Source of the DNA: Acidimicrobiales bacterium
Lineage (GTDB): Bacteria > Actinomycetota > Acidimicrobiia > Acidimicrobiales > SZUA-35
Direction of reading: 5' to 3'
Length of the DNA stretch: 64,000 nt
Assembly (NCBI GenBank): GCA_020629155.1
Contig: JAHDDW010000003.1
Coordinates: 124,001 to 188,000, forward strand
The stretch's first letter is position 1. The number at the start of each line of letters is the position of its first letter. Positions 4,783 to 57,680 of the stretch are shown here, in pieces. The notes under the pieces were generated by a model that had not been told where the DNA came from, made no database searches, and saw only the letters and a list, made by a program, of their open reading frames with translations. The position numbers were made by a program, and so were the translations under genes.

Positions 4783-5598
4783 ATGCGTATTGAAGTAAAC
4801 GAACCTAACGATCCACAGATTAAAGTATTTCAAGATTTACGGGATCATGTTTTGCGTCAGAAACGTGAACGACCTGGCGGCGATATGGCTGGCATTTTTA
4901 TAGCCGAAGGCGACATTGTTGTCGAACGGGCACTTAACGCAGGCTATGAACTTGAATCGCTTCTGATTGACGCGAAGCGCACAAAGCCAATGCCAGCGCT
5001 AATCAACGATTCTGTTCCGCAGTTTGCTGCGAGCGACGAAGTGCTGCAACAAATTACTGGCTACAACATTCACCGAGGCTGCATTGCATGTTTTCGACGC
5101 AAAGACCTTTTGACAGTCGACACGGTGCTAGCCCAAATGGCAGATGATGCAACACTTCTGATTCATGAAAATATTAACAATCCGACAAATATGGGTGTTA
5201 TTTTACGCTGCGCAGCAGCTCTTGGCGTCGGCGGCTTACTCATGGATCAAACATGCAGCGACCCGCTTTATCGCCGCAGCGTACGAGTCTCTATGGGCGA
5301 AGCTTTTTCTATGCCCTATGCCCGGTTTGATGATTGGCCTTCTGGGCTTAGCCAAGTTGAAGAAGCTGGCTATGAGGTGTGGGCGCTAACACCAGCAGAC
5401 GATGCCGAAGATATCAGTCAAATTCGGACTGACAAAAAAATTGCGCTGATGCTCGGGGCTGAAGCACCAGGACTCACTGATCAAGCGCTAGCGGCCGCTA
5501 CTCGCAAGGTTAAAATACCAATGACAGGCACGGTCGATTCGCTTAACGTCGGTGTTGCAGCTGCCATTGCGTTCTATGCGGTACAGCAAAACCGTTAA
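4783..5598 (+). CDS. TrmH/SpoU-family RNA methyltransferase
   Basis: NINNPTNMGVILRCAAALGVGGLLMDQTCSDPLYRRSVRVSMG, LMLGAEAPGL, IPMTGTVDSLNVGVAAAIAFY. Confidence 0.95.
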   Translation: MRIEVNEPNDPQIKVFQDLRDHVLRQKRERPGGDMAGIFIAEGDIVVERALNAGYELESLLIDAKRTKPMPALINDSVPQFAASDEVLQQITGYNIHRGCIACFRRKDLLTVDTVLAQMADDATLLIHENINNPTNMGVILRCAAALGVGGLLMDQTCSDPLYRRSVRVSMGEAFSMPYARFDDWPSGLSQVEEAGYEVWALTPADDAEDISQIRTDKKIALMLGAEAPGLTDQALAAATRKVKIPMTGTVDSLNVGVAAAIAFYAVQQNR

Positions 5599-5599
5599 A

Positions 5600-5717
5600 G
5601 GAATCTCTGGTTAAAGGGTCAACTCCGAAAGGCTTGAACTGAGAACCGCGTATCTGCTGCGTGCAACGCGCCAAGCGCAGCGGAAATACGAGGGAATGTA
5701 AAATAAACGACGTTCCC
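5600..5717 (-). repeat. MITE-like dispersed element, family A (copy 2)
   Basis: Reverse complement gggaacgtcgtttattttacattccctcgtatttccgctgcgcttggcgcgttgcacgcag... aligns to copy 1; fills the gap between the stop codons at 5598 and 5718. Confidence 0.7.
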
Positions 5718-6398
5718 TTACGTAACGCCTGTTTGTGTTAGCACTTCGTCGAGGCTGGCAACAATGCCTGTATAGAACGCACCAAACTCGCCATAAAGGG
5801 CAGATGCCTCATCATAACGCATCGTGTAGACAGCATCTTTTAAATCATCTGGGTGGACACCAAAAAGTGTGACGCCCCATTCAAAATCGTCTAGACCTGT
5901 AGACCCAGTGATGAGCTGGATGATGCGACCGCGAAACTGTTTCCCAGACGCACCGTGTTGGTGCATCATTTCTTTGCGTTTTTCAAACGAGGCTGTAAAC
6001 CAGTTATCTTTTTCGCCGCGACGTTTACTCATCGGATAGAAACACCATGAAGCTTTACCTTCTGGTGGCAGCACTGGATAGAGACGATCTTGTTTCATCT
6101 TCTCAGGCAAGCCATCGGCGTATTCGCTGATCTCGGTGATTGAGACGTAGCTATCGCTTACTTCCAATCCAGCATTTTGCAGATCGGTCTGCAACTTGCG
6201 TAGATCCCACATGTTAGGAGACAGCCCCATCACTGCGATGTCTGCTTTGTGACCTAGCAAAGCAACGGTCACAGACTGTGCCTGATCGCCACCTTCAAAC
6301 GAAGCAAACGCTTTTTTAATAGCAGCAGTGTCTGCTAACGGGGTGACATGAAGAAACAGATGAAGAACACTGACGCCAACTTTAGGAGAACTAATCAT
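5718..6398 (-). CDS. Chlorite dismutase-family protein, coproheme decarboxylase (ChdC/HemQ)-like
   Basis: YVSITEISEY, FYPMSKRRGEKDNWF, HGASGKQFRGRIIQLITGSTGLDDFEWGVTLFGVHPDDLKDAVYTMRYDEASALYGEFGAFYTG. Confidence 0.92.
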   Translation of the reverse strand: MISSPKVGVSVLHLFLHVTPLADTAAIKKAFASFEGGDQAQSVTVALLGHKADIAVMGLSPNMWDLRKLQTDLQNAGLEVSDSYVSITEISEYADGLPEKMKQDRLYPVLPPEGKASWCFYPMSKRRGEKDNWFTASFEKRKEMMHQHGASGKQFRGRIIQLITGSTGLDDFEWGVTLFGVHPDDLKDAVYTMRYDEASALYGEFGAFYTGIVASLDEVLTQTGVT

Positions 6399-9068: not shown

Positions 9069-9605
9069 TTAAATAAGTTTTTCTTTACTTGCTGCATGCC
9101 CACGAAGCAACGAACCAGCATGCGGAGGCCACAACACAGGAGCGACAAGAACTTTCTGCAACCCACCTGCGTCTAGCTCTACACGGGACACATCGCCATT
9201 TCTGATCACAACAAACGGACGCTTTGCATCACACGTTTGCCGAACTAGCCCAAAATCGTCGCTGCATACTTGCGCAGCAAAACGTTCCACCACAGATGAT
9301 GAAGTTTCACAAGACGCTGTCACTAGTGGCGTTGCTTTCGCCCACATTAACGCTGTCAACAAAGGACCAAACGCAGCAAAACGTTCGTAGCGGTTCTTAA
9401 CACTTGGATGAAAACTATAGCTATGAGGCCCTACGATAATCACAGGGTCAATAGCAACTTCATGAAAGACATGAAGCAAAATTTCAACACTACTTTGATG
9501 CTCAACAGTGCAGGCATCATCAGGGCACAGTATCGCCCCAGCAACAAGCATAGGCTTCCCTTTTATCGTTTTTCTGCCGGAACAAGCAAACAGCAGCCCG
9601 CCCAA
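9069..9605 (-). CDS. Hypothetical protein, possibly nucleotidyltransferase-like
   Basis: 178-aa ORF with TTG start; weak resemblance of GRKTIKGKPMLV...VIIVGP to MobA-like NTP-transferases. Confidence 0.5.
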   Translation of the reverse strand: MGGLLFACSGRKTIKGKPMLVAGAILCPDDACTVEHQSSVEILLHVFHEVAIDPVIIVGPHSYSFHPSVKNRYERFAAFGPLLTALMWAKATPLVTASCETSSSVVERFAAQVCSDDFGLVRQTCDAKRPFVVIRNGDVSRVELDAGGLQKVLVAPVLWPPHAGSLLRGHAASKEKLI

Positions 9606-9606
9606 A

Positions 9607-9672
9607 GCTGCATGCTAACGTGCTGGACATAGCCGAAATGACAAAAGGATGCGAAATACGAAGGCACCCTCT
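9607..9672 (-). repeat. Degenerate copy of dispersed element family A
   Basis: Reverse complement gggtgccttcgtatttcgc...gcacgttagcatgcagctttg resembles family A; directly follows the DUF3151 stop. Confidence 0.45.
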
Positions 9673-30642: not shown

Positions 30643-30750
30643 AGGGCACCTCTAACAATTATAGATGCCCTCAGATTTCCTGCTTTCAGACGATTCGCTT
30701 GCATGCGAAGTCGCTAACGCTGCGTGCAAGCGACTCAAGCCTAGAACCAA
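30643..30750 (+). repeat. Dispersed element family A (copy 3, diverged) plus hairpin
   Basis: gggcacctctaacaattatagatgccctcagatttcc matches head of copy 1; followed by tcgcttgca...tgcaagcga hairpin. Confidence 0.55.
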
Positions 30751-30763
30751 GCATCACCTATCG

Positions 30764-31732
30764 TCAACCGATGATTGTTGTCTCATATCGGAAGGTTTCT
30801 AACTTGCCATCGACTAACACATCGCTGACAGTAACTTCATACGTCACATCACCAGAAATATCTTCTGGCAAAATCGGCTGCCACACAATAACTGATGCAG
30901 GAACCTGACCTTTCTGGCTTATCTCAGCCACAACCTCAAGAGAAACAGCGCTACCTTCAGAATTCATAGAAACTGAAGCGTTCGAAAAATCTGCATCTGC
31001 TTTGCTGAACGACCAACGAGGATACACAATATCTTCAGGTACAAACCCGCGTGCAGGCCAGGCAACAAAACCTTGCCGCTCCCGAGTGGCCAACCATGGA
31101 TCAAAAACGTTTTCGTCAAACACCCACAAAATATTAGACTCATAGTTTGTATCTGTAGCAGCGCTGTGCCCAACACCCATACGCAGCGTCGGTGGATGCA
31201 AAATAGTGTTGCGGTGCCCCACATCTTTGTTGCCTTCGCCTGGGTCTTCTATATAGCCATCAATAGCGTGCGCTCCACTTCGGCCTAAATAAAGGTTGCT
31301 GTTAGCGGCTGCCTCTTTCGCCGTTTCGGTCAGACAAGCGAACGAGTCATCTGGATCATGGCTTAACTCGCCTTGCGCACTCATAGTCAAGGCCCCATGC
31401 TGCGCTTTCGCCGACATCTCTGCATCTTCGGTAATTAACGCAGGCACACCAGCCATCGCACGATAAAAATTGACTCTCGCAAGGGTTTGTGTCCGCAACA
31501 TTGCTGAACTTGAACCAGCATCACATACTTCATGTGAACCGTCCCACTCCATCGCAGCTGGCTTGGTTGCAAACTCTTTTTCATAAAACCGTAGCACAGC
31601 GCTTCGATCAGAAGTATCAACCCACAGCGAAGACGTTTCGGTGCCAGCAGGCTGAGCATTAGCCGACATTGTGGCTAGAACAACAAAAAGACAAGCAACA
31701 GCTCGTATAAAATGTCGAAGACCTTTGCGCAT
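30764..31732 (-). CDS. CAP/SCP-domain secreted protein
   Basis: Signal peptide; LARVNFYRAMAGVPAL...GALTMSAQGELSHDPD...GHRNTILHPPTLRMGVGHS. Confidence 0.85.
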   Translation of the reverse strand: MRKGLRHFIRAVACLFVVLATMSANAQPAGTETSSLWVDTSDRSAVLRFYEKEFATKPAAMEWDGSHEVCDAGSSSAMLRTQTLARVNFYRAMAGVPALITEDAEMSAKAQHGALTMSAQGELSHDPDDSFACLTETAKEAAANSNLYLGRSGAHAIDGYIEDPGEGNKDVGHRNTILHPPTLRMGVGHSAATDTNYESNILWVFDENVFDPWLATRERQGFVAWPARGFVPEDIVYPRWSFSKADADFSNASVSMNSEGSAVSLEVVAEISQKGQVPASVIVWQPILPEDISGDVTYEVTVSDVLVDGKLETFRYETTIIG

Positions 31733-38671: not shown

Positions 38672-38879
38672 GTCATCCCCAACTTGATCACGTCATCCCC
38701 AACTTGATCACGTCATCCCCAACTCGATTGGGGATCTCTCTCTGGCCAGATTCCCAGTCGTAGCTGGGAATGACGGGGTCGTGGCTGGGAATGACGGGGT
38801 CGTGGCTGGGAATGACGTGGTCGTGGCTGGGAATGACGGGGACGTAGCTGGGAATGACGGGGACGTAGCTGGGAATGAC
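38672..38879. repeat. Tandemly expanded GTCATTCCC-type inverted repeat locus
   Basis: GTCATCCCCAACTTGATCAC units on the left arm and five extra ~21-bp units ending ctgggaatgac on the right, between convergent genes. Confidence 0.9.
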
Positions 38880-38950
38880 ACGTTCCAGGTGTAGAACTTC
38901 ATATGCCTGCGCACCTACTTGGCCGGCTAGTACAACTTATTACGATCGAC

Positions 38951-43836: not shown

Positions 43837-45552
43837 TTATTTTTTAGCCGTATACACATCAAACCCGTCGATCTGGTCAGATAGAGTCAATCGCTTCACA
43901 GCAACTGCAAGCAGACGGTCTGATTCGCTTGTGCGATATTTGTCGTCAGGGCGATGGATAACAACTTTCGGCGGCTCCTTTGTTATCACCGCTATAGCTC
44001 GATCGATATCTTCTCCGCTTCGCAAACCAAAGGTGGCATTAAAAAACCATAGCGGGCTTTGCCTACCGCTGATGCTATAGATTTCAGGGTTTGTGGGCAA
44101 TGCCAAAATCGGATCCTGCTGGGCAGTGTTCGACTCGATGATCTCCAACAATCGACTGTATGGCTCGATATCTTTCGCCGGCAGCCAGAGACCCGTGCCC
44201 ATAGCTGAATCTTCGACGAGGGGGAAGCGCACTCCTGCCATTGCTGCTTCATGCGGACGATACAAGGGCTGACCAGCAAAGAAAACCAATGCTAATGCCG
44301 CCATAATGGCAGGAACGCCAACAAGAACACGCGAGAAATTCCCCTTAGGCGTCGTGACCACGATATGGCCAAGCAACGTTGATGCTGTCACAAAGAAAAG
44401 ATAAATAGGTATCTGATAGTGCACCGAGATTGTCGACCAAACGACGGCCAACAAAGCAAGTGGATGCACAAACTCGTTACGAATCATTTTTCTGACGACA
44501 CGTATACCTAGTACCGCTGGGTTAAGAACAAGGGTAACCCAAAATAGAGTAAGCACTATCGTTGTGACATCTCTGGCATTCATCAACCCGTCAAGGCCTG
44601 CTTTGAGCTCATTCAGAAAAGATGGATCGTTAATCCAACCCTGTTGCGCAAAACTAGTCGCAGAACCAAAAGTTGCGTCTAGCCAACCGTCAAGCAACCC
44701 TGAAAAAGCTAGATAACAAACAAGTGGAGCGAGAACAGCGAAGAACCCTGCACTCAGTTTGCCAACCAACAATAGTGAATCTTTCTTGTTGAGCTGAGGG
44801 CGCAAAGCCAGTAAGCAGAAAATAAGTAGCGGCCACAGTCCAACAATCGCCAAGCTATCTATATTCGTTCGGCTTACAAGATAGAACCCAAGACCAAGAG
44901 CCATGCACGCTGCTATACCTGCCGCTAGAAGACCATCACGACGATTGCGCTTCACTAAAGAAGAATCAGTTTCGTACAATAGCATCGCAACCAAAGCCAT
45001 TGCGGCAAGCACTCCAGAGAGCTGCCGGGTAAGAAAAATCACAGCAACGCCAGCACCTACCACATAAAGCCGCCAGCGAGTTGACTTGTCAGTATTGGAA
45101 ACAATACAACCCAAGGCAAGAACGAAGAGGAGACTATACCAGTTGGCGCTTGGATTCAGAAAAAGCACAAACGAGAGCGATACAAACCCCACAGCAGCGC
45201 TTATCGCCGCTTGCCACCCATGGATCTTTTCAACAATATGATGGACAGTTAAAGCACCGACCCAGAAACCCGCCGCTAAAAAATAGCGTAGACTGACGAA
45301 CTGATCACCGAATAGTCGCAGCGCTAACGCATGAATATGGTGGACAAGCCCAGGATGAATATCTGTTACGCCTTGTGTGTACGTTTCGCCAGCATTCATC
45401 TGCTGGGCAACATACAGGTACGCACCTTCATCGGGACCCCACCAAAAACGATTGTGAAAATACCAAAGAATCAGACCACAAACCAACCCTGAAACCGCTA
45501 AAGGCAGACGGAGCCAAGACATATCGATGTGTCTGTCGTTTCTTTCTGCCAC
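43837..45552 (-). CDS. GT39-like polytopic membrane glycosyltransferase
   Basis: WGPDEGAYLYVAQQMNAGETYTQGVTDIHPGLVHHIHALALRLFG; multi-TM. Confidence 0.7.
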   Translation of the reverse strand: MAERNDRHIDMSWLRLPLAVSGLVCGLILWYFHNRFWWGPDEGAYLYVAQQMNAGETYTQGVTDIHPGLVHHIHALALRLFGDQFVSLRYFLAAGFWVGALTVHHIVEKIHGWQAAISAAVGFVSLSFVLFLNPSANWYSLLFVLALGCIVSNTDKSTRWRLYVVGAGVAVIFLTRQLSGVLAAMALVAMLLYETDSSLVKRNRRDGLLAAGIAACMALGLGFYLVSRTNIDSLAIVGLWPLLIFCLLALRPQLNKKDSLLLVGKLSAGFFAVLAPLVCYLAFSGLLDGWLDATFGSATSFAQQGWINDPSFLNELKAGLDGLMNARDVTTIVLTLFWVTLVLNPAVLGIRVVRKMIRNEFVHPLALLAVVWSTISVHYQIPIYLFFVTASTLLGHIVVTTPKGNFSRVLVGVPAIMAALALVFFAGQPLYRPHEAAMAGVRFPLVEDSAMGTGLWLPAKDIEPYSRLLEIIESNTAQQDPILALPTNPEIYSISGRQSPLWFFNATFGLRSGEDIDRAIAVITKEPPKVVIHRPDDKYRTSESDRLLAVAVKRLTLSDQIDGFDVYTAKK

Positions 45553-45668
45553 CGCCTTCTAATCGGACAAATTACGTGGAAATCAATAGTTGCCTAGGGT
45601 TGCTGACAGTAGCATCGAGTTGTGGCAAAGACAGTAGCTTTTGCCCCTTAACCGAATACGCTGGGTTT

Positions 45669-47444
45669 GTGAAACAAATTTTTGGTGCTCTCGCTTACTC
45701 AAAGCAGCTCAAGCCGTATTATCTGCTTGTCTCTTTCTTCTCAATTCTTGTTGCCATCGCAACCCTCATGCAACCATTTTTGCTGAAATGGGTTATCGAT
45801 GAGTTTGAGACTGGTTTGCCACGAGCATCACAGCTTATCCTTCTCGTCGTGCTCTATTTCGCTCTCGATTTCAGCATCACCATTTTTACCAATATCGGCG
45901 GCTATTTCGGTGACATGATGGAGATTAAACTGCGCCGACATTTGAGCGAACAGTACTACAAACATTTGCTTCAGCTGCCACAACGCTACTTTGATAATGA
46001 GCGCACAGGTGCGTTAGTTAACCGTTTGAGCCGTTCAATAGAAAATTTAACGACAACAATAAAAATGTTTTCGAACAACTTTCTCCAGCTGCTATTCACT
46101 ACCGTTTTTACTCTAGTTATCACCGCTGCCTACTCCCCTATAGCCGCTTTCTTAATGCTGATCCTTTACCCGCTGCTGCTTTGGCTCACTAGACGATCCT
46201 CTGAACAATGGCAAGAAATAGAGAAAGAGAAAAACGGTTTTCTAGATGAAGCATTTGGCCGTTTCACCGAGGTGATCGGGCAGATCAGAGTTGTTAAAAG
46301 TTTTCGTCAGAACAAAAACGAGCTACACCTTTTCCAAAACAAATTTGGTGAAACAATTGCACTGACGTCGAAACAATCTAAGCTTTGGCACAATCAAGAC
46401 GTTCTGCGTCGATTAATGCTAAACCTTATCTTTACAGGCATTTTTGCAACCATTATTTGGCAGACATTTAAAGGCAGTCTTTCTCTTTCTGAGCTTGTGC
46501 TTATTTTGGGCTACACCAACCTTATCCGCCTACCACTCTTCTCATTGAGCTTTATCGTCGATTCTGTGCAGCGAGCCATCGCAGGGAGCAAAGACTTCTT
46601 TGAAGTTCTGGCACTAGATACTGAACCTAAGGCATTTGATGAGCCAGACGATATTGCGCAAATAGACCGAGCCGAATGCACTGTTGTTTTCGATGATGTC
46701 TGTTTTGCTTACGACGAAGACGATCGAGTGCTCAATAACCTCAATTTCGTGATCAACCCTGGCGAAAAACTTGCGCTAGTTTCAGAATCAGGCGGCGGCA
46801 AGTCAACTATAGCAAACCTGTTGATGGGGCTATACCACCCGACAGCTGGCAGCATTACGCTTGGGTCTGAAAACACAACCGATCAGCCTTTTTATTGGCT
46901 ACGCGAGCAGGTTGGCGTTGTCTTCCAAGACGCTGATCTGTTCTCGGGAACTATCTTAAGCAATATCTCATACGGCAGACCAGATGCCGACATCGAAGAA
47001 GTTGAACGAGTCGCAGAGCTAGCGAATGCACACGAGTTTATATCAAAGTTTAAAGATGGCTATCACACCGAAATTGGTGAGCGAGGCATCAAACTTTCAG
47101 GCGGGCAGCAGCAGCGTATAGCTATCGCTAGAGCGTTGCTGAAAGACGCACCTATTTTGATTCTCGACGAAGCAACGTCAGCGCTGGATTCGAAAACAGA
47201 AGTAGAGGTACAGGCTGCTTTGGAAACTTTGATGGAAGGTCGCACAAGCCTTATTATCGCCCACCGCCTGTCAACCATCGCAAATGTCGACACTATCATC
47301 ACTTTAGCCGACGGCACCATTGATGAAATTGGAACGCCTGCCGAGCTTAGTGTTTCTGGCGGCACCTACGGACAACTCTTACAGCTACAATCTGCGGACC
47401 CTGAAGAACGCAAAAAATACCTTAAACAGTTTGATCTGCATTAA
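45669..47444 (+). CDS. ABC exporter (permease-ATPase fusion, MsbA/MdlB-like)
   Basis: TM domain plus SESGGGKSTIANLLMGLYHP, LSGGQQQRIAIARALLKDAPILILDEATSALD; GTG start at 45669 preferred over 45375. Confidence 0.93.
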   Translation: MKQIFGALAYSKQLKPYYLLVSFFSILVAIATLMQPFLLKWVIDEFETGLPRASQLILLVVLYFALDFSITIFTNIGGYFGDMMEIKLRRHLSEQYYKHLLQLPQRYFDNERTGALVNRLSRSIENLTTTIKMFSNNFLQLLFTTVFTLVITAAYSPIAAFLMLILYPLLLWLTRRSSEQWQEIEKEKNGFLDEAFGRFTEVIGQIRVVKSFRQNKNELHLFQNKFGETIALTSKQSKLWHNQDVLRRLMLNLIFTGIFATIIWQTFKGSLSLSELVLILGYTNLIRLPLFSLSFIVDSVQRAIAGSKDFFEVLALDTEPKAFDEPDDIAQIDRAECTVVFDDVCFAYDEDDRVLNNLNFVINPGEKLALVSESGGGKSTIANLLMGLYHPTAGSITLGSENTTDQPFYWLREQVGVVFQDADLFSGTILSNISYGRPDADIEEVERVAELANAHEFISKFKDGYHTEIGERGIKLSGGQQQRIAIARALLKDAPILILDEATSALDSKTEVEVQAALETLMEGRTSLIIAHRLSTIANVDTIITLADGTIDEIGTPAELSVSGGTYGQLLQLQSADPEERKKYLKQFDLH

Positions 47445-47558
47445 GGCTATCTCTATGTATCGCTTCTCTGCTCTGAATCGCTTTACCCAAAAACCGCTAA
47501 AAGCTGCGTGCTAACGCTCGAAATGCCGAGGGCATGTACAATTGTCAGAGATGCCCTT
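47445..47558 (-). repeat. MITE-like dispersed element, family A (copy 4)
   Basis: Reverse complement gggcatctctgacaattgtacatgccctcggcatttcgagcgttagcacgcagcttttagcggtttttgggtaaagcgatt...atagagatagcc; fills gap between stop codons at 47444 and 47557. Confidence 0.8.
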
Positions 47559-48369
47559 AATCTAAAATAGCTTCAGGCGATGAAGCGACAAGATCAGTAG
47601 CACCAAGTGCTTTTAGATCGCTTAGCTGTTCCCAAAAGTCTTTTTTATTAAAAACAAGATGCACAGCGACATTGTCAGAACCATCTAACGGAACAATTGT
47701 TGGTGTGCGCTGCGTCAATACCTTCAGCTCAGCGAGCTTATCTAGCGACAAATGAAACATAACATACAGTTTTTCTTTTGCCACCAGCACTGAATTAAGG
47801 CGAAGTGTTAGCTCGTCTAAAGCTGGACTGCTTGTTTTACCTTGTACAAATGTTGCTTGACATGATTCAGCTTTGTGAATGGCGTGCAGACCATTGTTAA
47901 ACAAACTTGCACCTGTGTCACGTAAATCAACGATTGCGTCAGCTAAACCCTGAGCACAAACACCTTCGAGAGAACCGCCCATAGAAATAACTTCGACGTC
48001 GATTTCCATCGAGTCAAACCATTTGCGCGTCCATGTAGGTAAGTGCGTAGCGATTACTTTCCCTTTAAGATCTAGAGGCGCTTTATATGGCGCATCTTTC
48101 TGGCATGCAATAACTAAGTCAGATGTAGAAAACCCAAGCGGCGTTGTTTCCCAGTCTTCTATGCCTTGTTCTAACGCTATATCTGTTGATATAAACGCAG
48201 CCGACAAATGGCCATTAGCTAGCCATGTTGCAGCATCACGGGGGCGCATCTCTATGAAAGAAATTTCGCCTTGCGTTGACTTTGATAAAGCTCTTGGATA
48301 TCCCGCCCGAGTCATCAAATCAAGAACTGATTCACGTAATCTTCCTTTTGAAGGAATTGCAACAAACAT
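47557..48369 (-). CDS. hisG: ATP phosphoribosyltransferase (long form)
   Basis: IPSKGRLRESVLDLMTRAGY; DAIVDLRDTGASLFNNGL; C-terminal regulatory-like region. Confidence 0.93.
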   Translation of the reverse strand: MFVAIPSKGRLRESVLDLMTRAGYPRALSKSTQGEISFIEMRPRDAATWLANGHLSAAFISTDIALEQGIEDWETTPLGFSTSDLVIACQKDAPYKAPLDLKGKVIATHLPTWTRKWFDSMEIDVEVISMGGSLEGVCAQGLADAIVDLRDTGASLFNNGLHAIHKAESCQATFVQGKTSSPALDELTLRLNSVLVAKEKLYVMFHLSLDKLAELKVLTQRTPTIVPLDGSDNVAVHLVFNKKDFWEQLSDLKALGATDLVASSPEAILD

Positions 48370-56480: not shown

Positions 56481-57680
56481 GTGTCACTACAACCTGATGT
56501 TTTACCCGCTTCATTTGTTCTTAAGGCGGATCGCATCGCCAAAGGCGGGGCCTGCATAGGCAAAGCGCCAGACGGCCGAACTGCATTCATTACTGGCACT
56601 ATCCCAGGTGAACAAGTCGAAGTTACCGTTGAGAAAGAGCACAAAAACCGTGTTGAGACAACATGCGATGTAGTGGTCGATCCTTCGCCTCACCGCATCA
56701 AGCCTGCGTGTAAACACGTGCAAGATGGCTGCGGCGGTTGTGACTGGCAACATATTGACGCCACCCATCAAAGCACATTGCGCAACGCTATCGTCGCCGA
56801 CGGTCTACGACGGCTAGGTGGCATAACTGACGTGCCGATCGTTAGCGGACCAACACTTAGCGCAGCTGATTACCGCTCCACTGTTAAAGCTGCGGTTATA
56901 AACGGCAAAGCAGGTTTTCGCAAAGTAGGCTCACATGATCTTGTTGCGGTCGACCAATGTGTTATCGCTCATCCATTAGCTGAAGAGGTTCTAAGCGAAG
57001 GAAACTTTGGCGAGGCAAACGAGATCACTATTCGGGTTGGGGTCAACACAGGTGACCGTCTACTTATAGTCGATGTTCCTAAAGAAACAGTTAGTGTGCC
57101 AGAGGACGTTGTTGTAGTTGAAAAAAATGAGCTGAAGGCTGGCAAGCGAGCGTTCTATCATGAAGAGGTAGGTGGCAAACGTTTCAGAATTTCGGCGTAC
57201 TCGTTTTTTCAATGTCGACCAGATGGTGCTTTAACACTGGCGCAGCTTGTTAACGAAGCGATTAGCCAAACTCCTGGGACAGTGCTTGACGCCTACTGCG
57301 GCGTCGGTCTTTTCGGTGTTTTAAGCGGCGAAGGGCGCACTGTTGTTGGTGTCGAATCTAATAAATCGGCCATTGCGGATGCCAAGATAAATTATGCCAA
57401 AGGCAACAAAGTTATTCATTCTCGATTTGAAAATTGGACTAGCTCACCCTTTGATGTGGTGATTGCTGACCCTGCCCGTGCCGGGCTCAAGAAACAGGGT
57501 TGCGCTAAGATAGCCGCCACAGGCGCGCAAGCTATTGCACTTATCAGCTGCGACCCAGCCTCGCTAGCAAGAGATGCCAAAATTTTAACCTCTGAGCACA
57601 ACTATTCATTAGAGAAAGTCACAACGGTCGACATGTTTGCGCATACATCGCACGTCGAAACTGTCAGCTTGTTCACTTAA
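56481..57680 (+). CDS. TrmA/RumA-type RNA (uracil-5-)-methyltransferase
   Basis: TRAM domain, CGGCDWQHI, LDAYCGVGLFG, DPARAGL, LISCDPASLARD. Confidence 0.93.
   Translation: MSLQPDVLPASFVLKADRIAKGGACIGKAPDGRTAFITGTIPGEQVEVTVEKEHKNRVETTCDVVVDPSPHRIKPACKHVQDGCGGCDWQHIDATHQSTLRNAIVADGLRRLGGITDVPIVSGPTLSAADYRSTVKAAVINGKAGFRKVGSHDLVAVDQCVIAHPLAEEVLSEGNFGEANEITIRVGVNTGDRLLIVDVPKETVSVPEDVVVVEKNELKAGKRAFYHEEVGGKRFRISAYSFFQCRPDGALTLAQLVNEAISQTPGTVLDAYCGVGLFGVLSGEGRTVVGVESNKSAIADAKINYAKGNKVIHSRFENWTSSPFDVVIADPARAGLKKQGCAKIAATGAQAIALISCDPASLARDAKILTSEHNYSLEKVTTVDMFAHTSHVETVSLFT

Follow-up and report, generated by a model that had tools for sequence, protein, structure and literature searches.

Within the window, the whole 64,000-nucleotide stretch of DNA that was analysed, an ABC exporter gene and hisG converge on a repeat that fills the gap between them from stop codon to stop codon, and the question is how so exact a fit could have arisen. 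The exporter gene (45375–47444, + strand; Pfam ABC_membrane and ABC_tran) ends in a TAA at 47442–47444, and the repeat starts at 47445 (GGCTATCTC). The stop codon of hisG (47557–48369, − strand; HisG and HisG_C) occupies 47557–47559 on the − strand and abuts the other terminus of the repeat (GAGATGCCC followed by TTA). The distance between the two stops is exactly 112 bases, all of which belong to one copy of the repeat in − orientation (47445–47556), delimited by a profile match of 108.5 bits (profile span 47444–47556) and by alignment; this copy is internally deleted by ~10 bp relative to the 121-bp consensus. A sequence-only reading of the window had described this stop-to-stop arrangement, and the fit was confirmed, with stops at 47444 and 47557 bracketing the repeat. 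Of the span given there, 47445–47558, the start holds and the end does not, as 47558 intrudes two bases into the hisG stop.

To what kind of repeat does this copy belong? A DNA search of its own genome, a single draft assembly (3.17 Mb, 59 contigs), returned 41 matches. With a covariance model derived from 25 copies and a cut-off of E ≤ 1 the number rose to 143, of which some 90 scored above 48 bits; model E-values are rough, and we summarize the family as ~110–140 matches. The consensus of ~121 bp runs from GGGCATCTCTA through TAGATGCCCTCGGTATTTCCGCTCCGCTCGGGGCGTTAGCACGCAGCTTTTAGCGGTTTTCTGGTAAAGCGATTCAGCAGAAAA to CAATAAATAGAGATAGCC. Its terminal inverted repeats (GGGCATCTCTA...TAGAGATAGCC) are imperfect, the consensus ends being complementary at ~15 of 18 positions, and across 70 aligned copies no more than 66% of cells are paired between the right and left terminal repeats. 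A further, inverted copy of the left end lies inside the element and forms a hairpin with that end; in the focal copy this hairpin (GGGCATCTCTGACAATTGTACATGCCC) lies at 47530–47556 on the − strand, as located by covariation in the 70 copies and by the consensus fold. The family is thus short, non-coding and multicopy, with defined common ends, imperfect terminal inverted repeats and a 4-bp target-site duplication (see below). Bacterial MITEs are likewise short, gene-free, multicopy and intergenic, with imperfect terminal inverted repeats, target duplication and strong secondary structure (PMC10969869); the present repeat differs from them in the extra internal end copy that forms the left hairpin, and in that its parent transposase was not found. 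None of the families in Rfam matches the repeat, and the window gives just three tRNAs.

The flanks of the copies carry the signature of insertion. For copies above 60 bits, the four bases on either side were compared and matched against 2000 shuffled pairings. Exact direct matches were found for 11 copies, compared with 3.1 expected, and agreement at three or more of the four positions for 28, compared with 15.6 expected (P < 0.0005 for both), with no excess of inverted matches between the two 4-mers. The matching flanks include the non-consensus pairs TATA/TATA, TCAA/TCAA and ATAA/ATAA, so the agreement reflects more than common AT-richness. A TWWA composition is seen on both sides and is confined to the 4 bp next to the element; together with the direct matching, this pattern is what a target duplication of 4 bp leaves behind. 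In about half of the copies two or fewer of the four flanking bases match. These data imply a duplicated 4-bp target of consensus TWWA, usually TTAA or TAAA, and they bear out the earlier suggestion of an insertion specificity for TTAA or stop contexts, TTAA being a stop on both strands.

We therefore favour, with a probability of roughly three in four, the reading that the repeat is a MITE-like element and that its insertion into TWWA, with duplication of the target, explains the flush geometry. The element, moved by a transposase supplied in trans, would have reached over 100 sites within a single uncultured Acidimicrobiia-like lineage, entering 4-bp TWWA targets (mostly TTAA or TAAA) and duplicating them. 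At the focal locus the junctions read ATTAA-element-TTAAT, and the two proposed copies of the target, at 47441–47444 and 47557–47560, contain the exporter stop and the hisG stop respectively; both assignments rest on the local sequence and on the duplication statistics. When one TTAA is deleted, the TAA of the exporter and the TAA of hisG overlap in the TTAA that remains. The ancestral genes probably overlapped in just this way, at a single TTAA with a TAA on each strand. Since TTAA holds a TAA on each strand, one insertion into such overlapping convergent stops keeps both genes intact and flush with the element; duplication of the TTAA would have left each gene with its own stop and the gap filled exactly. 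Convergent pairs with stops overlapping in TTAA are still present in the sampled genome, for example at 57677–57680 of the window. A transposon whose 4-mer target resembles a stop codon can insert where two facing genes leave no gap at all, with neither gene damaged, and a stop-to-stop placement that appears designed becomes ordinary.

The same geometry recurs elsewhere in the window. A second doubly flush copy (5600–5717, − strand; 87.3 bits, profile span 5598–5717) lies between a trmH-like gene with its stop at 5598 and a chdC-like gene with its stop at 5718, as had been reported, although one extra A stands at 5599. The trmH-like stop (5596–5598) is contained in a TTAA at 5595–5598, and the chdC side reads TTAC (5718–5721), one substitution off TTAA, giving the junctions TTAA(A)-element-TTAC. 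This would be the same event followed by one synonymous change in chdC. A degenerate copy (9552–9671, − strand; 52.1 bits, profile span 9551–9671) was confirmed beside the DUF3151 gene, from whose stop (9673) it is separated by one base, on a single side only. Pfam matches confirmed the SpoU methylase (trmH-like), chlorite dismutase-like (chdC-like) and DUF3151 genes beside these copies. C-terminal truncation was considered as a source of the flush stops and was ruled out: alignments of HisG to its homologues run to residue 269 of 270, and ChdC likewise extends to the C-termini of its homologues, so the stops of both genes are native and not products of truncation. Elsewhere in the window, a near-consensus copy (979–1099, + strand; 138 bits, profile span 979–1100) has its nearest called genes at 48 bp on the start side and 194 bp on the stop side, and a weak, left-half-like copy lies at 30644–30766 (+ strand; 32.3 bits). 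Two other repetitive stretches were noted: at ~1180–1250, near the 979–1099 copy, a different palindromic stretch (CATCCCCGAGAAATCGGGGATC ... ATTCCCACTTTCGTGGGAATGACG), perhaps of another repeat family, and at 38736–38900 an intergenic array in which a 21-bp unit (GTCGTGGCTGGGAATGACGGG) recurs six to seven times head to tail.

For a wider view of the relation to gene ends, genes were called in 409 kb (the window and the stretches around copies) with a simple home-made gene caller, and 66 well-placed copies were scored for gap type and distance to the nearest stop. Convergent, tandem and divergent gaps held 12, 36 and 18 copies, where the positions of TWWA sites predict 8.9, 36.3 and 20.8 (P = 0.47), so there is no significant preference for convergent gaps. 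Placement within gaps, on the other hand, is biased. Fourteen copies lie within 1 bp of a stop, compared with 5.2 under uniform placement within the gap (none of 5000 simulations reached 14). When placement was restricted to TWWA sites of the same gap, 14.2 were expected, under a null that is lenient because the used site is itself a candidate whenever the duplication is intact. Against the pooled TWWA sites of element-free gaps, the 14 flush copies compare with 5.1 expected (P = 0.0004) and the 29 copies within 12 bp of a stop with 7.3 (odds ratio 6.3), an excess for which target choice alone is insufficient. The count of two doubly flush copies exceeds the 0.11 that all TWWA sites would give (P = 0.006), 11 of the 12 copies in convergent gaps lie within 12 bp of a stop (P = 0.0009), and 28 of the 36 in tandem gaps lie closer to the stop than to the start. 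The target 4-mer explains exact flushness, then, and the general proximity to stops needs a further cause. It had been proposed that placement is tied to 3' ends rather than random: the association stands, clearly above expectation (29 of 66, compared with ~7), even though most copies are not flush; an exclusive association does not, as the 18 copies in divergent gaps have no adjacent 3' end.

Relaxed selection would be the simplest cause of this general proximity. Stop codons are themselves targets, and insertions there would spare coding sequence and promoters, so that copies may persist near 3' ends. Another reading, which we consider unlikely, holds that insertion or retention is specifically directed to the first dozen bases past stops, with gene 3' ends acting as a safe harbour; where convergent stops overlap, the element would then hold the two genes apart as a spacer and may insulate one transcript from the other. 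That insertion is steered behind stops by a cue other than the 4-bp target, such as a termination-associated DNA structure or a longer sequence context, we consider improbable. TWWA sites within 1 bp of a stop have an insertion rate of 0.30 each and those at 2–12 bp one of 0.75, compared with ~0.10 at 13–60 bp, and even the copies that have diverged least show the bias (9 of 24 within 12 bp), both as steering would predict. However, a bias of this direction would also follow from selection against insertions into promoters and terminators, the 2–12 bp rate is based on a background of only 20 TWWA sites, and gene starts and gaps rest on the home-made caller. With more than 60 usable copies, this one genome offers a means of probing whether mobile repeats are guided to gene 3' ends or simply tolerated at such places.

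A further possibility is that the repeat, once mobile, has been selectively kept as a 3'-end module, either a bidirectional terminator, as the sequence-only reading had suggested, or an mRNA-stabilizing hairpin. The excess near stops and the position of the convergent copies, given above, agree with such a role, as does conservation of the hairpin by compensatory changes: over the 70 copies it is 90.7% paired, with 50 double changes compared with 15 in shuffles and two pairs showing double changes in about a third of copies. This alignment was fitted to a model that holds the hairpin, and an unfitted MAFFT alignment gives the same changes. The integrity of the hairpin, however, is alike near stops (0.88–0.89) and in divergent gaps (0.90–0.92), and does not drop as the rest of the element diverges; the hairpin therefore seems to be required by the element everywhere. 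Of 37 stop-proximal readings, only 3 have a U-rich tail (at least five T in eight bases) behind the hairpin, short of what an intrinsic terminator would show, and a terminator scan at the focal locus found nothing inside the element. Copies within 30 bp of a stop show no preferred orientation with respect to the gene (23 vs 20), and the full set of tandem gaps leans co-directional (28 vs 12; P = 0.017, uncorrected). Convergent gaps are not significantly enriched, 18 of the 66 copies lack a neighbouring 3' end and 54 lie in tandem or divergent gaps. A dedicated 3'-end module is thus unsupported and in our judgement unlikely, although the repeat may still act as a terminator of the kind that works without a U-tract. 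On the simplest reading, the element adds one more case to a well-known class of small mobile repeats and is not a purpose-built terminator.

Comparable placements have been described for other small repeats. QMITE2 of Coxiella burnetii is also a MITE found mainly in 3' untranslated regions, and some of its copies meet or supply gene 3' ends (PMC5896051); as compared by description, it differs in its length of 150–190 bp, its variable duplications of 7–11 bp and its GTAG REP core, in place of the 4-bp TWWA seen here. The RUP, BOX and SPRITE repeats of Streptococcus pneumoniae are over-represented between convergent genes, where our element has 12 copies vs 8.9 expected; BOX often provides a stop codon, and the pattern has been attributed to relaxed selection on mobile repeats (PMC3049150). 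SPRITE, likened here by description, has a terminator-like U-rich tail that our element lacks (PMC3049150). Transposons of the piggyBac type integrate exclusively at TTAA (PMC7351741), a stricter target than TWWA; their bacterial kin are the IS1380-type elements.

A search for the source of transposition in the draft genome found no IS1380-type (PF13701), IS701-type (PF13546) or Y1-type (PF01797) protein, with the qualification that a draft assembly may lack the parent transposase; the PF01797 search does give matches when run on control genomes (5 of 14). A single DDE transposase turned up, a PF01609 protein (C55, a 3.1-kb contig), for which no link to the element and no matching ends were demonstrated. 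Profile matches to the left end only were tried as candidate autonomous elements and rejected, the tested neighbours being ordinary genes (pyridine-nucleotide disulphide oxidoreductase, phosphomannomutase, NADH dehydrogenase subunits). Hairpin-bearing REP-like repeats are common, and no feature of our element is better conserved than the left hairpin; both would suit a single-strand hairpin element of the REP or IS200/IS605 kind that inserts beside TTAA without target duplication. We regard this as very improbable: the flanking 4-mers covary as direct repeats, the TWWA at the right end is as variable as that at the left, and the genome contains no match to the Y1 (RAYT/TnpA) transposase that would mobilize such an element.

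An empty ancestral TTAA was also sought in relatives through hisG and chdC orthologues. No such site could be shown, as these relatives are only ~50–68% identical and the neighbourhoods of both genes are unconserved, with synteny lost. By alignment of the HisG family, the nearest named relatives are uncultured Acidimicrobiales MAGs at ~50% identity, from which the host's placement in Acidimicrobiia is inferred. The repeat family itself was absent from 60 relatives, two of them of the same genus, and from a class-wide sample of 395 genomes, its own genome excepted, and no match was found in plasmid, phage and viral-contig collections. The sampled genome has a G+C content of 0.47, compared with 0.59–0.69 at the hisG loci of family relatives, and neither of the two same-genus genomes yielded a hisG.

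Some matches depart from the full-length form. One locus (L119, G000:C28:44834-45085) carries three head-to-tail repeats of the element's left half, so local tandem amplification of part of the element is possible. At another (L085, G000:C5:350851-351135) the core (model positions 32–73) is repeated several times without the ends, adjoining NADH dehydrogenase subunit genes. Finally, copies L031–L120 fall into subfamilies at element positions 4 and 7 (GGGCATCTC, GGGAATGTC and GGGGATGTC), in which changes at the left end go together with changes in the inverted copy inside, often joined at position 7 by the right end, as if one putative binding site were maintained in three copies.
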